64,000 bases of DNA. Origin: Sphingorhabdus sp. (GTDB lineage: Bacteria > Pseudomonadota > Alphaproteobacteria > Sphingomonadales > Sphingomonadaceae). Of the stretch, positions 2,991 to 29,478 are shown piece by piece. The stretch lies in contig NZ_JAAVVZ010000013.1 in NCBI RefSeq assembly GCF_023910635.1, positions 1 through 64,000 of the forward strand. Reading direction: 5' to 3'. How positions within the stretch are numbered: the stretch's first letter is position 1; each line of letters starts with the position of its first letter. A program made the translations under genes and the position numbers. The notes under the pieces are model-generated. The model did not search any database. It saw only the letters and a program-made list of their open reading frames with translations, and had not been told where the DNA came from.

Positions 2991-3037
2991 CTTTGTCATT
3001 TTGACGCCGCGAAGGTGCATTTAAGTGGTCCTGACCC
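2991..3037. repeat. Right-end fragment of the TA-type MITE
   Basis: Forty-seven bases match the right end of the full elements at 6135-6397 and 28204-28466, ending in GTGGTCCTGACCC and followed by TA. The left part is missing. It lies between the CHASE2 gene and the M20 peptidase gene. Confidence 0.8.
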
Positions 3038-4565: not shown

Positions 4566-6170
4566 ATGTTGCGACGTAAAGCAGTTGTCATTGGTGCAGG
4601 TATTGGCGGCATATCATGTGCCATGCGGTTACAAAGCCTTGGCTTTGATACGCAAATATTGGAGGCATTGGATGCCCCCGGTGGCCGTGCCTATGTCCGC
4701 AAGGCGGATGGCTTTACATTTGATATGGGGCCGACGGTGCTTACGGTGCCGCATTTCATCGAGGAATTGTTTAGCCTGCAGCAAGACCATGCCATGCTTG
4801 GCGAGCCCGACTTTCCGCCGCATGTTTTGGATGAAAATAACCGCGTGCGTGAGGGCATCTCGGGCGGACCCAATACCAGCAAATATGTCGAAATAGTCCC
4901 AATTCTTCCATTTTACCGTATCTATTTCGATGACGGCACGTTTTTTGATTATGATGGCGATCCCGTCAGCACGCGGGCGCAGATCAAGCGTTTGGCGCCC
5001 GAGGATCTTGCGGGATATGAAGCCTTTCACGATCAAGCCAGAGCCATATTTAAACGTGGATTTTTGACGCTGGGCTATACCTATTTCGGCAGCCTTGGAT
5101 CGATGCTGCGCGTTGTGCCCGATTTGCTGAAGCTTGGCGCGGTGCGGTCGCTTTTCGGGATGGTAAGCAAATATTTCAAATCAGACAAAATGCGGCAGGT
5201 ATTCAGCTTTGAACCTTTGCTGGTTGGCGGCAACCCGATGAAGGTGCCTGCGATTTATGCGATGATCCATTTCGTCGAAAAGACTTGGGGCATTCATTAC
5301 GCCAAGGGCGGCACAGGCGCTCTGGTGGCGGCTTTAGTCAAAAAGTTTGAAGAAATGGGCGGCCGGTTGCGGCTCAAGGCACCTGTGCAACGGATACTGG
5401 TGGAAGACGGCGTTGCCAAGGGCGTCGAGCTTGCAAGCGGTGAAACGATATTTGCGGATGTTGTGGTGTCGAACGCCGATTACGCAACGACCTATCTAAA
5501 GCTGGTAGATAAGGCGCATCGGCGCATTAACCGCGATGCATTGGTGAAATTCCGCAAGCAATCCATGTCGTTGATGGTAATTTATTTCGGCTATGAATGC
5601 CGCGACAATGACCCTGATTTGCGCCATCATAACATCATATTGGGTCCCCGATACGAAGCTTTGCTTGATGAGATTTTCGAGAAGAAGGTGATGAGCCCGG
5701 ACTTCTCGCAATATCTGCACATTCCGACACTGACCGATCCGGCTATGGCGCCTGCGGGCCATCATGCCGCTTATACGCTCATTCCAGTTCCCAATAACGC
5801 AAGCGGCATCGACTGGGACGTCGAAGGGCCAAAGCTGAGCGCGCGGGTGCTGACCTTCTTGGAAGAGCGCGGCTATATCCCCGATCTTGCCGCGCGGTTG
5901 AAGCATATGAGCTTCATCACGCCGGATTATTTTTCAGAAACCTTGGGTTCCTATCTTGGCAATGGGTTTGGCGTGGAACCTGTTTTGACGCAGACCGCCT
6001 TTTTCCGTCCACACAATAAGTCGGAAGATGTGCACAATCTCTATCTGGTAGGCCAAGGCACGCAGCCAGGTGGCGGTACGCCGTCGGTGATGATGTCGGC
6101 CAAAATGACCGCACGCGAGATAGCCCGCGACCTAGGGTCAGGACGACTTAAATCCACCTTCGCGGTTTGA
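4566..6170 (+). CDS. Phytoene/carotenoid desaturase family protein, C-terminus altered by a MITE
   Basis: An FAD-dependent amine-oxidase-fold desaturase of the CrtI family (534 residues). It has the N-terminal dinucleotide motif [16 protein letters not shown], then APGGRAYV and [11 protein letters not shown], and the C-terminal [20 protein letters not shown]. It would act on a polyene at the membrane, but no other carotenoid gene is next to it, so the exact substrate is uncertain. The last 12 residues after Leu523, and the TGA stop, are encoded by the element at 6135-6397. Taking the element out with one TA joins the frame to 6400-6456 and gives 18 different residues (GVDASVVNGVPDQREAAL) ending in TAA. 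Catalytic parts are intact, so the protein may still work. Confidence 0.85.
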
Positions 6171-6397
6171 GGCCATACTGTTCAGTGCAAGGCGGCAAGC
6201 GCAGGACTTAGTGGTTCTAAGTCCAAGCTTGTCAACGTGGCAATGGACAATATGGGCCAAATCCAAAGGACGCCAAAATGGCTTCGATCTCAAAGCAAAA
6301 CGCCCTTGCAGGCAGACTTACTGCCTACGGCGGCCATTTTCCTTCGATATCTTTGCCATTTTGACGCCGCGAAGGTGGATTTAAGTGGTCCTGACCC
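6135..6397. mobile_element. Full-length MITE, copy A (263 bp, TA duplication)
   Basis: The element is bounded by TA at 6133-6134 and 6398-6399. Its terminal inverted repeats begin GGGTCAGGAC and contain TTAAATCCACCTTCGCGG on both ends. It has the same length as copy B at 28204-28466 and is readily aligned to it over the whole length. It carries nested internal hairpins and no transposase, so it must have been moved by an enzyme encoded elsewhere. TA target choice is typical of IS630/Tc1-mariner transposases (family knowledge). It interrupts the 3' end of the desaturase gene. Confidence 0.9.
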
Positions 6398-6399
6398 TA

Positions 6400-11679: not shown

Positions 11680-12504
11680 ATGCCTTACAGATACGGTCAT
11701 TATTATGTCGGCTTCGTGCTGGCCGTTATCTTAGCGGGCTTTTGGAAAAGCTACTTTAGCATAGCAGGTGCAGTTCCATTTGCGTTTCATGCACATGCAT
11801 TTTCAGCGACGATCTGGCTCCTGCTGCTGATCCTCCAAAGCGCGACAATACACGGACGTCACAACGCCTTTCATAAACTGGCGGGACTGGCGAGTCTTGG
11901 TCTTTTCCCGCTTCTTATTGCCGGTTTTGTAATGATACTTAACGTGACAGCGGCACGATACGCGGCTCAAGAAAGCCCGTTCGTCATGTTGCTTGGGCCA
12001 TCATTCGGCATCGGCATGTTCATCGCGATTGCAGCATATCTAACGCTTTTTTACCAAGCGTTGCGACACCGAAGAAACATTCGGTTGCATGCAGGGTATA
12101 TGCTTGCGACCCCGCTAATCCTGTTTGAATCTCCATTTAGCCGGTTGATGGAGCAGGCACTCCCTTGGATGAACTTTATTGGAAGTGAAGGGCCAATGGC
12201 TGTGATCGACGTCATCGCAATTAGTAACGGCTTGGCGATCCTCTTTGCAATGACCCTCTACTTTATGGATCGCAAGCATGGCGCGCCTTGGTTGGTGGCC
12301 TCAGCGTTCATGGCGACGCAAACCATCATGATGTGGTTTGCGCCATCCACTCCATTGTTGCATACACTGTTTAAATTCTACGCTATGCTTTCCCCAGAAC
12401 TCACTGTCTTAACGGGTATGTTAGCGGCTGTTCTGGTTGGTTATTTCGGTTGGCTGCGGGGGATACGAGCGATCCGGCCACCAGTGCAAACCAGTCCGAC
12501 TTAG
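11680..12504 (+). CDS. Seven-helix-type membrane protein of unknown function
   Basis: A 274-residue integral membrane protein with about seven hydrophobic segments. Conserved-looking histidines sit in or next to helices: FAFHAHAFSATIW, NAFHKLAGLAS and IRLHAGYML. That pattern vaguely recalls heme- or quinone-handling membrane families such as DUF2306, but the match is not firm. The C-terminus is polar (IRPPVQTSPT). The stop is TAG made of the native TA plus the first G of a 54-bp MITE; removing the element gives TAA at the same place, so the protein is unchanged. Confidence 0.7.
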   Translation: MPYRYGHYYVGFVLAVILAGFWKSYFSIAGAVPFAFHAHAFSATIWLLLLILQSATIHGRHNAFHKLAGLASLGLFPLLIAGFVMILNVTAARYAAQESPFVMLLGPSFGIGMFIAIAAYLTLFYQALRHRRNIRLHAGYMLATPLILFESPFSRLMEQALPWMNFIGSEGPMAVIDVIAISNGLAILFAMTLYFMDRKHGAPWLVASAFMATQTIMMWFAPSTPLLHTLFKFYAMLSPELTVLTGMLAAVLVGYFGWLRGIRAIRPPVQTSPT

Positions 12505-26279: not shown

Positions 26280-26745
26280 TTGCCGGAGACGCTTACCTGC
26301 GCGGTGCGAATGGTTTTGGACCACGAGAGCGATTATTCCGCACGCTGGGCAACGGTGGTATCGGTTGCCGAGAAGATTGGCCGTGTGCCACAGACATTGC
26401 ACGATTGGGTGAAGAAAGCTGAGATCGACAGCAGCCAGCGGGCTGGCATTCCGAGCGACACGGCCGACAAGATCAAGGCACTGAAACGCAAAGTGCGAGA
26501 GTTGCGCCAGGCCATGCGGGCAGGCTGAGGACCGAACGCTCGACCATGTTAACCGACAATTTCATGCGCCGGTGCCCAACATGCTCTGGGTGTCGGATTT
26601 TACCTATGTCTCGACATGGGCGGGTTTTGTATATGTGGCGTTCGTGATCGATGTGTATGCTCGCCATATCGTGGGCTGGCGCGTCAGCCGGACAGCGCAT
26701 GCTAGGTTGGCTGTGCCGCCCTTCGGGTCGTTTTCGACGCACTGA
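26280..26745 (+). pseudogene. IS3-family insertion sequence remnant (OrfA fragment plus OrfB fragment)
   Basis: The first frame (26280-26528) encodes a transposase OrfA-like helix-turn-helix: AVRMVLDHESDYSARW, VAEKIGRVPQTLHDWVKK, KALKRKVRELRQ. It breaks off early. A second frame (26530-26745) encodes part of the OrfB integrase core: VNRQFHAPVPNMLWVSDFTY, VAFVIDVYARHIVGWRVSR, containing the first two Asp of the DDE triad. The last Glu and most of OrfB are missing and an internal deletion joins the pieces. It cannot be active. Clear terminal repeats were not found. Confidence 0.8.
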
Positions 26746-26792
26746 GCTTATACCATTAGCTCCCTGTGCCAAGCTACCCTTCTTGGCTGGTT

Positions 26793-27182
26793 CTACACAG
26801 ATGATCGTATGTCCGAATGACGACGATTAAGGAGATGGGCGAAGGTAAGGCCAAAGGCCCCCGCAGCAGTCAGCCAAGTTTCCAAAACCATGCCATGGAA
26901 TAACAACGCACCAGCAGTCAAAGATACTAGGGCAGGCATAGCAATCATGATCGGCATCCAGTTTTTGTGCCGACGTAGCCCTATATAGAGAGCGATCAGG
27001 CTGATTGGCACAGCGATGATAAGCATCCAGAAGTGAAAACTTTCCGGCACAGTTATCCAAACCGCCAGGGCCGGCATCATGAAGAGCAGTGCTGGTAGAA
27101 ACAGACAGTGCACTAGGCACAGCCCCGAAGCTAACATCGCCGCAGCATCGTAGCGTGTCTGCGGGGGTTGCGGTTGAGCCAT
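26793..27182 (-). CDS. MerC-family membrane protein
   Basis: About 129 residues with four helices. The MerC cysteine motif is present in ASGLCLVHCLFLPALLF. Besides mercury uptake, MerC proteins are often under Zur control and serve zinc uptake or handling; the zinc-type neighbours favour that here. ATG 27182 follows GAGAGATAAG; a TTG at 27194 is in frame upstream. It is divergent from a zinc-type GTPase fragment, with a Zur-like box between the two. Confidence 0.8.
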   Translation of the reverse strand: MAQPQPPQTRYDAAAMLASGLCLVHCLFLPALLFMMPALAVWITVPESFHFWMLIIAVPISLIALYIGLRRHKNWMPIMIAMPALVSLTAGALLFHGMVLETWLTAAGAFGLTFAHLLNRRHSDIRSSV

Positions 27183-27234
27183 CTTATCTCTCAAATAGTG
27201 GGTGGACAGAGCGGTTTAGACGATGCTAGTTATT

Positions 27235-27273: not shown

Positions 27274-27477
27274 ATGAACAATTCGAACTTCAACCGCCTC
27301 CCGGTCACCGTCCTGTCTGGCTTCCTCGGCGCGGGAAAAACTACCCTGCTCAATCACATTCTCGCTAATCGCGAGGGCAAGCGCGTCGCCGTCATCGTCA
27401 ACGATATGTCCGAGGTTAATATCGACGCCGATCTCGTACGTGGCGGTGAAGCGCAGACGGCGCTGGAACTCGTATGA
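27274..27477 (+). pseudogene. Truncated COG0523 zinc-type GTPase (ZigA/YciC-like), N-terminal 67 residues
   Basis: The fragment contains the P-loop and switch region of a CobW-family metallochaperone: [20 protein letters not shown] and [17 protein letters not shown]. It ends with TALELV and a TGA. Full-length proteins have about 400 residues, including a CxCC metal site that normally follows directly and is missing here. The frame runs into the next gene, as if an internal deletion fused the locus. A GTPase without the metal site and C-terminal domain should not work. Confidence 0.8.
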
Positions 27478-28043
27478 TCATGAGCGCCTATGCCGATGCC
27501 GTCGAGGACTGGTCTCGCATTCATGCGCGAGAGTGCCCACTAGTTGTCGAACAGCGCACACCGCCGGTGCCGGACACAGTTATCGCGCCGTGGCTTGAAA
27601 GAGCACCGTTTGCGATCCGGGCCGAAGGTGATTTCGCAACTGTAATGGCGCAGCTCGCGGAGCTGCCCGATGCGTTGTGCACGGACGTTGCGGTCCTGGT
27701 ACAACGCTTCATGTTGCTTATGCAGACCGATGCCGTCCGTGTCCGAATGGAAGGGATTACAACCAACGCCTGCAAGAAGGTGCACGCCGACTATACAGAT
27801 GTTCGACTGATCACCACGTACAGCGGACCGGGCACGGATTATGCCCCAAACGGCGTGGCCAATGATGGGTTGGAGTATTATTTGGATAGAGTTCCAACCG
27901 GGGCGATCGCGCTATTCAAGGGCCGAACATACGCGTCCGATCACCCACCCTGCTTCCACCGGTCCCCGCCAGTTGGCGATACAGGTGAGAAGCGGCTTGT
28001 TCTGGTTATTGATACGCTACTACAAGGAACCCTTACGGACTGA
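27474..28043 (+). CDS. DUF1826-like protein of the zinc-limitation locus
   Basis: A 189-residue protein resembling DUF1826 (e.g. [61 protein letters not shown]). DUF1826 genes regularly accompany Zur-regulated COG0523 GTPases; the His/Cys-containing motifs suggest metal binding, but the function is unknown. The ATG overlaps the stop of the GTPase fragment. The protein looks nearly complete; its N-terminus may have been shortened in the same deletion. Confidence 0.65.
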
Positions 28044-28118: not shown

Positions 28119-28203
28119 ATGCGTATAGTTTTAAGTGTAGGATTGGCCCTTGCAGCAGCGCCACTTCATGCAGGTGCGGCTCAACCTATTATGTTGCAAC
28201 CTA
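28119..28203 (+). pseudogene. 5' fragment of an exported superoxide dismutase gene (signal peptide)
   Basis: ATG 28119 with GAGG nearby opens a signal peptide (MRIVLSVGLALAAAPLHAGA), followed by AQPIMLQP, and the frame then enters the MITE at 28204 and stops after a few codons (RVRTY, TAA). Deleting the element plus one TA makes the codons CCT-AAG-GAC and continues directly into the superoxide dismutase frame (KDLPSATFSLPALPYD). The original product would have had 249 residues with a cleavable leader. This is now the separated leader-encoding part. Confidence 0.8.
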
Positions 28204-28466
28204 GGGTCAGGACCTATTAAATCCACCTTCGCGGTTTGAGGCCATTTTGTTCAGTGCAAGGCGGCAAAGCGCAGGCTTAGTGGTTCTAAGTCTAGCTTTG
28301 CCAACGCGGCAATGGACAAAATGGGTCAAATCCGAAGGACGCCAAAATGGCTTTGATCTCGAAACAAAATGCCCTTGCAGGCAGAATTACTGCCTGCGGC
28401 GGCCATTTTCCTTCGATATCTTTGCCATTTTGACGCCGCGAAGGTGGATTTAATAGGTCCTGACCC
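28204..28466. mobile_element. Full-length MITE, copy B (263 bp, TA duplication)
   Basis: Bounded by TA at 28202-28203 and 28467-28468, with the same length and ends as copy A. It contains the hairpins GGCAAAGC/GCTTTGCC and GCAGGCAG/CTGCCTGC, and an arm pair CCATTTTGT/ACAAAATGG. It lies inside the superoxide dismutase gene between leader and mature part. An open frame reads out of the right end into the dismutase. Confidence 0.92.
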
Positions 28467-29133
28467 TAAGGACTTGCCAAGCGCGACATTCAGTCTGCCT
28501 GCACTTCCTTATGATGCTAGCGCGCTGGAGCCTGCGATCGACGCCGAGACCATGCGGATACATCATGGCCGCCACCATCAGGCCTATGTCACCAACCTCA
28601 ACAGTGCTGTCGTCGCCGATCCGGCCATGGCGGCGATGACCCTTGAGCAGATGATGGCAACCGTTTCGACGTTGCCCAAAGCCGTCCGTGACAACGGTGG
28701 AGGCCATTGGAACCATAGTTTTTTCTGGCAGAGTATGGCCCCGCCTTCTCAGTCTGGCGCACCGTCTGTCGACCTTATGGAGGCGATAGAGGAGAGTTTT
28801 GGGTCGGTAGACGACTTCAAAGCGCAGTTCGCGCGGGCAGGCGCTGCGCGGTTTGGATCGGGCTGGGTATGGCTGATCGTCGATGGCTCGGGCAGGTTGG
28901 CGATCACTTCCACACCAAATCAGGATAATCCGTTAATGGATATCGCCGAAACGCGTGGCACGCCGATTCTTGGAAATGACGTTTGGGAACACGCCTATTA
29001 CCTCAAATACCAAAATCGGCGCGGTGACTACCTTGCCAATTGGTGGCAGCTGGTGAACTGGGCGCAAGTCTCTCGTCGCTATGCTGAAGCTCAGAGACGC
29101 AGTAAGCGGCATGATCGAGCTGAAAGACTGTGA
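28369..29133 (+). CDS. Iron/manganese superoxide dismutase, leader cut off by MITE
   Basis: The mature enzyme part is complete: FSLPALPYDASALEPAIDAE and MRIHHGRHHQAYVTNLN (first two His ligands), GGHWNHSFFWQSM, FGSGWVWLIVDG, and DVWEHAYYLKYQNRRGDYLA (Asp and His ligands). It converts superoxide to peroxide and oxygen. Its natural 5' end, coding for a signal peptide, is now beyond the MITE (28119-28203). The only upstream in-frame ATG is at 28369 inside the element and has no evident ribosome-binding site; that would add about 34 element-coded residues and no leader. So the enzyme is either unexpressed or has become cytoplasmic. Fe or Mn preference is not decided. Confidence 0.85.
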   Translation: MPLQAELLPAAAIFLRYLCHFDAAKVDLIGPDPKDLPSATFSLPALPYDASALEPAIDAETMRIHHGRHHQAYVTNLNSAVVADPAMAAMTLEQMMATVSTLPKAVRDNGGGHWNHSFFWQSMAPPSQSGAPSVDLMEAIEESFGSVDDFKAQFARAGAARFGSGWVWLIVDGSGRLAITSTPNQDNPLMDIAETRGTPILGNDVWEHAYYLKYQNRRGDYLANWWQLVNWAQVSRRYAEAQRRSKRHDRAERL

Positions 29134-29274: not shown

Positions 29275-29445
29275 AATTACGGTGACAGTGCACTAAATTA
29301 TAGCAATCTGCGCATCACGGTTCTAAGCCGGAATTAAGTGCACTGTCACCGTAATTGACTGTCACCGTAATTCGAATTAAGTGCACTGTCACCGTAATTC
29401 ACTGTCACCGTAATTCGAACGTAATTGCGTCACCGTAATTGCACT
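29275..29445. repeat. Cluster of AAGTGCACTGTCACCGTAATT-type repeats
   Basis: One inverted unit at 29275-29300 faces two complete direct units at 29331-29356 and 29374-29400. Partial units sit at 29357-29373, 29401-29426 and 29427-29445. The units abut or overlap with no regular spacers, so this is not CRISPR. The pattern looks like repeated or nested ends of a small mobile element or REP-type repeat, partly scrambled. Confidence 0.75.
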
Positions 29446-29462
29446 GCGCCCCATATCCGGCA

Positions 29463-29478
29463 TAAGTGGTCCTGACCC
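29463..29478. repeat. MITE right-end fragment before the exonuclease gene
   Basis: TAAGTGGTCCTGACCC followed by TA. Only the outer 16 bases of the right terminus remain. The in-frame codons of the exonuclease begin right after it, so the element removed the native start. Confidence 0.7.

Follow-up and report, generated by a model that had tools for sequence, protein, structure and literature searches.

RUP, a repeat of pneumococci that ends in TA, is proposed to be moved by IS630-Spn1 (PMC2229807). In a 64,000-nucleotide stretch of a Sphingorhabdus sp. contig (hereafter the window), a small element interrupts the gene for a putatively exported superoxide dismutase (SOD). As far as the passages of PMC2229807 on RUP go, both repeats have a TA target, inverted ends, no protein and many copies, whereas RUP measures 107 bp, has a 9-bp terminal repeat and lies between genes and in IS elements. 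The element described here measures 263 bp, has terminal inverted repeats of 31 bp beyond the TA, and no matching IS630 was found for it. The Correia or NEMIS repeats of Neisseria, compared by description only, likewise end in TA and have long terminal repeats (24 bp in Neisseria), with folded transcripts in Neisseria according to the part of PMC2229807 that treats them; they are about 107 or 155 bp long, and our element has two extra internal hairpin arms. The CIR repeats of Caulobacter and Brucella are alphaproteobacterial like the element and have two arms with conserved pairing, but as presented in the relevant passages of PMC2229807 they carry no terminal inverted repeat. The GANTC motif of CIR is absent from the element. 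No title describing the family turned up in the literature searched, which was largely without subscription journals. The split gene is an ordinary kind of mobile-element damage, done by an element from a large, strongly folded family for which we found no published name.

As the original prediction, made from the letters alone, had claimed, a MITE splits the gene for an exported SOD (Table 1): the element's 33-nt ends are perfect and carry TA on both sides, with the leader to the 5' side and the SOD domain to the 3' side. The complementary ends (100%), the TA duplication, the many copies and the lack of a transposase, the longest internal frame being 68 aa, are the features of a MITE. Allowing one mismatch, the 12-nt ends of the element are found 10 times in the window where 0.05 would be expected, which is not chance. 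Lone or degenerate ends lie at 3028, 8052, 8227, 10821, 12502 and 29469, and ORF 11680-12504 takes its stop codon from the one at 12502.

Table 1. Features of the interrupted SOD gene, its neighbours and the sister copy of the element (positions in the window).
Feature	Position	Strand	Basis or remark
MITE-type element, 263 bp	28204..28466	+	without transposase; terminal repeats close two hairpin arms
Terminal inverted repeat, left (33 nt with its TA)	28202..28234	+	full complement (100%) of the right repeat
Terminal inverted repeat, right (33 nt with its TA)	28436..28468	+	full complement (100%) of the left repeat
TA target duplication, left copy	28202..28203	.	end comparison across copies
TA target duplication, right copy	28467..28468	.	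end comparison across copies
5' part of SOD gene: start codon and predicted signal peptide MRIVLSVGLALAAAPLHAGAAQPIMLQ, then interrupted Pro codon	28119..28201	+	Shine-Dalgarno, hydrophobic core
3' part of SOD gene, encoding the mature Mn/Fe enzyme with Pfam domains Sod_Fe_N and Sod_Fe_C	28469..29133	+	domain matches
Sole ATG upstream of the SOD domain in its frame, within the element; weak ribosome site	28369..28371	+	ORF list, ribosome-binding prediction
MerC-like gene, divergent from cobW	26793..27194	-	domain and neighbourhood comparison
cobW (COG0523-type GTPase), truncated to 67 aa	27274..27477	+	comparison with cobW of Sphingomonas sp. LC-1
DUF1826 gene, 189 aa (196 aa in annotated homologue)	27474..28043	+	domain match, length close
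Second full element copy, replaces last codons of crtI	6133..6399	+	absent in relatives aligned
crtI, phytoene-desaturase-like gene	4566-6170		ORF reading

The mature part of the SOD matches Sod_Fe_N and Sod_Fe_C with E-values of 1.3e-28 and 6.8e-41, and its best solved relatives are 6gsc and 5a9g, the former named superoxide dismutase and the latter Mn-SOD. On the other side of the element, the start at 28119 has a good predicted Shine-Dalgarno pairing (-6.1 kcal/mol). The leader that begins there, with an Arg near the start and a hydrophobic core of 2.67 on the Kyte-Doolittle scale, is a predicted signal peptide by our own scoring. In the present sequence, the leader frame runs for 33 codons before a stop, and the leader is joined to the mature part only when the flanks are joined on paper. 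Joined at one TA, the flanks form a single frame of 750 nt (249 residues and a stop) that reads MLQPKDLPSATF, the 249-residue product foreseen for excision in the original prediction. By itself, this open frame is weak evidence, because open frames were no commoner with exact joins than with shifted ones: frames of at least 200 aa spanned the joined flanks in 9 of 52 copies with the exact join, in 18 of 52 with a shift of one nucleotide and in 15 of 52 with a shift of two. Restoration of the frame as a general rule of exact excision was rejected by this control, and the case therefore rests on the homologues and on the features of the leader. From 28369 through 29133 the SOD frame is unbroken, and it can begin only inside the element or later; as had been noted at the outset, its only upstream in-frame ATG is the one at 28369, inside the element, which also holds the in-frame non-ATG codons GTG (28444) and TTG (28375).

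A simple leader rule was applied to 138 SOD homologues, drawn from same-genus genomes, from a scan of genome contigs of which the best 80 loci were kept, and from a search of 396 genomes of the order (own included; 45 matches at E <=1e-62, 29 others fetched). The rows are partly non-independent, as L086 and L183, and L180 and L181, are identical pairs. Homologues in which a leader is joined to such a mature part, on whose existence the original prediction hung, were found. At 65% identity or more, 14 of 15 homologues have a leader by the rule, and the fifteenth has one by eye. Between 60 and 65%, a leader is present in 16 of 38 by the rule and in four more by eye, and the remaining 18 start at the domain, 17 of them from Bacteroidota. 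The rule finds leaders in 10 of 51 homologues at 55–60% and in 0 of 34 below 55%. As SODs at 55–60% identity mostly start at the domain (41 of 51) and open frames on joining are common by chance, one might suppose that the upstream leader-like frame is a coincidence and that this SOD never had a leader. This we regard as very improbable, given the signal peptide, the Shine-Dalgarno sequence and the placement of the window SOD among leader SODs. In the tree concerned, which was made with a quick, less careful method and in which five leader labels were assigned by eye (L074, L084, L179, L180 and L181), the window SOD shares a fork exclusively with 20 leader rows (SH-aLRT 94).

Taken together with the rest of our reading of the locus, it is highly probable that the window SOD was originally of the exported type. 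It has a domain in common with the leader-bearing Mn/Fe SODs of Sphingobium, Erythrobacter, Sphingomonas and others (55–72% identity), and likewise a leader; there the gene is uninterrupted, whereas in the window it is split. Within the genus itself, an SOD match was present in 25 of the 36 other genomes searched, some of which are incomplete, at 24–47% identity, with none in the other 11 and none above 47% in any. These matches were rejected as orthologues: their identity is low (24–47%), and the 16 of these loci that were fetched and read have no leader. As far as sampled, the exported SOD gene appears to be accessory in the genus. An uninterrupted version of the SOD locus was not found among the relatives searched.

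The comparison with relatives that lack the element, suggested alongside the original prediction, met no empty site at the SOD locus but did succeed at a sister copy. At crtI, this copy has put about 12 residues of its own and a new stop in place of the last codons. Of the same-genus relatives, 11 were fetched and five aligned; in these five the crtI flanks are contiguous, without the element and without any other change in length, and the length of the insertion equals the element plus one TA. All five relatives have TG in place of TA at the target. The TA duplication at crtI is therefore consistent with the ancestor but is not read directly from it. The window offers a clean example of a small element that splits the gene of an exported enzyme and whose sister copy is missing in relatives.

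The SOD gene would be the last member of a zinc-type group (cobW, DUF1826 and SOD, with MerC divergent), whose zinc role is presumed. Zur/COG0523 zinc clusters, in the passages of PMC2770081 that present them, combine paralogues of zinc enzymes with DUF1826 and a gene of the cobW type, as in the window. However, those passages name no exported SOD among the members, nor did the other literature searched place one in a Zur cluster, and the linkage seen in the window occurs in few loci. MerC and cobW lie near a leader-bearing SOD in L069, L084 and L144, DUF1826 does so in L079 and cobW in L080. Among the best 80 loci, zinc-cluster genes stand beside 5 of 36 leader SODs versus 0 of 44 others (p 0.016), a zinc link that is only suggestive because two of the five linked loci supplied queries. 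SOD matches occur on 159 plasmid records, with the gene order taken from one (H1); the Sphingomonas plasmid annotation reads GTP-binding protein, DUF1826, M3 peptidase, TonB receptor and SOD. In the window, 51 of 52 residues (98%) of the truncated cobW match cobW of Sphingomonas sp. LC-1; the match ends after the conserved GGEA, the frame stops seven codons further on, and this copy is the only cobW-family match in the genome. Because cobW is truncated as well, the SOD locus as a whole is, again as part of our overall reading, very probably decaying. Fragments that we read as IS3-type transposase-like lie beside the damaged operon, at 26280-26750.

As a whole, the explanation in which we have good confidence is that a MITE-type element that duplicates TA recently inserted behind the signal peptide of a gene in a decaying locus, with likely loss of the SOD. 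A non-autonomous element with IS630/Tc1-type movement would have entered a YTAR site just behind the signal peptide, which would separate the secretion signal from the Mn/Fe superoxide dismutase. The upstream part would now make at most a leader peptide of 33 residues, and the enzyme part, left without a good start, would most likely not be made, or would be made weakly as a cytosolic protein with an N-terminus encoded by the element. Loss is more likely than relocation because the inner start at 28369 has a weak ribosome site (predicted binding of -1.5 versus -6.1 kcal/mol at 28119) and lies in a predicted hairpin arm of the element; we judge that the enzyme was probably mostly lost rather than moved. 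The proposal that it moved to the cytoplasm is possible, but has this weak ribosome site against it. The loss of a defence enzyme of the periplasm, as first put forward, holds in that the gene is split, but is overstated, as two further SODs are encoded in the genome, a Cu/Zn-SOD whose leader we read as lipoprotein-type and another of the Mn/Fe type (42% identical, in a frame of 207 aa), and cobW is cut too.

With the SOD frame intact from the inner ATG to the stop, the split gene could still be in use, either by initiation at 28369, which would yield a cytosolic SOD with about 33 element residues, or by rare excision that switches export; bacterial MITE sequence fused in frame to genes is described in the portion of PMC2229807 on such fusions. 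The weak ribosome site, the position of the start within a predicted stable hairpin, the existence of the second Mn/Fe-type SOD gene and the fact that excision was not seen make this unlikely. A further possibility is compatible with the insertion and loss that we propose and differs only on the effect: the operon may have been dead already through the cobW deletion, in which case the element would be a neutral passenger and its insertion would have cost nothing. This would fit a cobW cut after 60 residues with no other family match in the genome, the IS3-like remnants beside it and the lone element end downstream at 29469. However, the intact SOD and DUF1826 frames fit a young lesion, and the sequence gives no order for the cobW and SOD lesions; we put the chance of a cost-free insertion at slightly below even.

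At least 38 near-full copies of the element are present in the host assembly (3.05 Mb, 89 contigs), as 38 of the 40 scored places, from 171 candidates, match over 264 or more of the 267 bases. Exact copies of the 12-nt end number 191 in the genome, versus one for the reversed control. The family was matched in 32 of 45 same-genus genomes (own included) and on five plasmid records, four of them at full length (Sphingopyxis, Sphingobium (two) and Novosphingobium; 67–74% identical). By inference, the kin of both the SOD and the element indicate a host in the Sphingomonadaceae. Shorter forms with the ends of the element measure 84, 143, 162, 181, 186 and 207 bp. The terminal repeat was also seen on one viral contig. 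Of the 64 rows examined, in which one copy appears twice (L167 and L229), 50 have kept TA at both ends; 48 of these have Y before it and 47 have R after it. On the host's own contig C12 (203500-206000, L170), the IS630-like IS-B is inserted in a copy of the element, both halves of which match the SOD-gene copy exactly. This identity and the intact SOD frame suggest that the insertion into the SOD gene is recent.

Duplication of TA is the mark of IS630/Tc1 transposases, and a transposase of this class is proposed for the element as part of our reading of the locus as a whole. A limited search did not find an autonomous IS630 element with matching ends, and DDE_3 genes occur in 5 of 45 genus genomes, versus 32 of 45 for the element. 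The two kinds of DDE_3 element in the host genome, IS-A (3 copies of about 1062 bp) and IS-B (5 copies of about 1177 bp), have ends that differ from those of the element and are unrelated to them, and both were rejected as autonomous partners. Stretches between pairs of ends were listed for the host's contigs up to C13 and for ten genomes except G020 and G007. Those of 1.3 kb (L168), 4.4 kb (L169) and 4.5 kb (L241) held ordinary genes by ORF reading and were dismissed as candidates, and those of 7.2 kb (L171) and 5.1 kb (L242) lay outside that reading. A RAYT/REP system (HUH Y1 transposase) was rejected too, the host genome having no match to PF01797 at E 0.001. Because no IS630 with shared ends was found, we file the element as MITE-like and not as a derivative of a named IS630.

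As single-stranded DNA, positions 28202-28470 are predicted to fold at -98 kcal/mol (z -15.6). The interior was aligned over 50 of the 64 rows; the 14 left out had mostly a changed end or length, and one was the duplicate. In this alignment, the 63 interior pairs outside the ends are 98.1% paired, versus 27–45% in a control with slid partners. Two-sided changes are seen in 26 of the 63 pairs, a number matched by 0 of 500 shuffles, which give no probability since the rows are related by descent and transposition and the structure was derived from the same alignment. The interior thus keeps its pairing via two-sided changes across genera, although the pairing could also persist by copying between arms, without selection. 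In the interior, G-U and A-C cells number 170 versus 21 with the structure derived on the same strand, and 198 versus 27 with that derived on the other strand, which folds slightly better. A polarity that would mark an RNA strand was dropped, with neither strand favoured, and because both strands fold alike no RNA is claimed. Rfam gave 0 matches at gathering scores in the window, the three weak matches to the element being far below the cut-offs.

The element is more unusual than the gene split, in that its interior shows paired changes across genera and no transposase with its ends was found. The larger question is what moves and maintains a strongly folded, co-varying repeat family of sphingomonads without a visible partner transposase. 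Tentatively, the internal hairpin arms may be kept by selection since the folded strand is used, in movement or at the RNA level, and the element may be served in trans by a transposase that is neither IS630-like nor RAYT-like and is not yet recognised; the family, sphingomonad-wide, would then split genes and alter protein ends throughout the genome. We regard this combination as a whole as doubtful.

Promoters and terminators around the SOD locus showed no excess, with 1 and 2 predicted versus 1.3 and 1.6 expected. Downstream of the SOD gene, at 29275-29450, lies a different palindromic repeat, which consists of four copies of CACTGTCACCGTAATT, one of them inverted.
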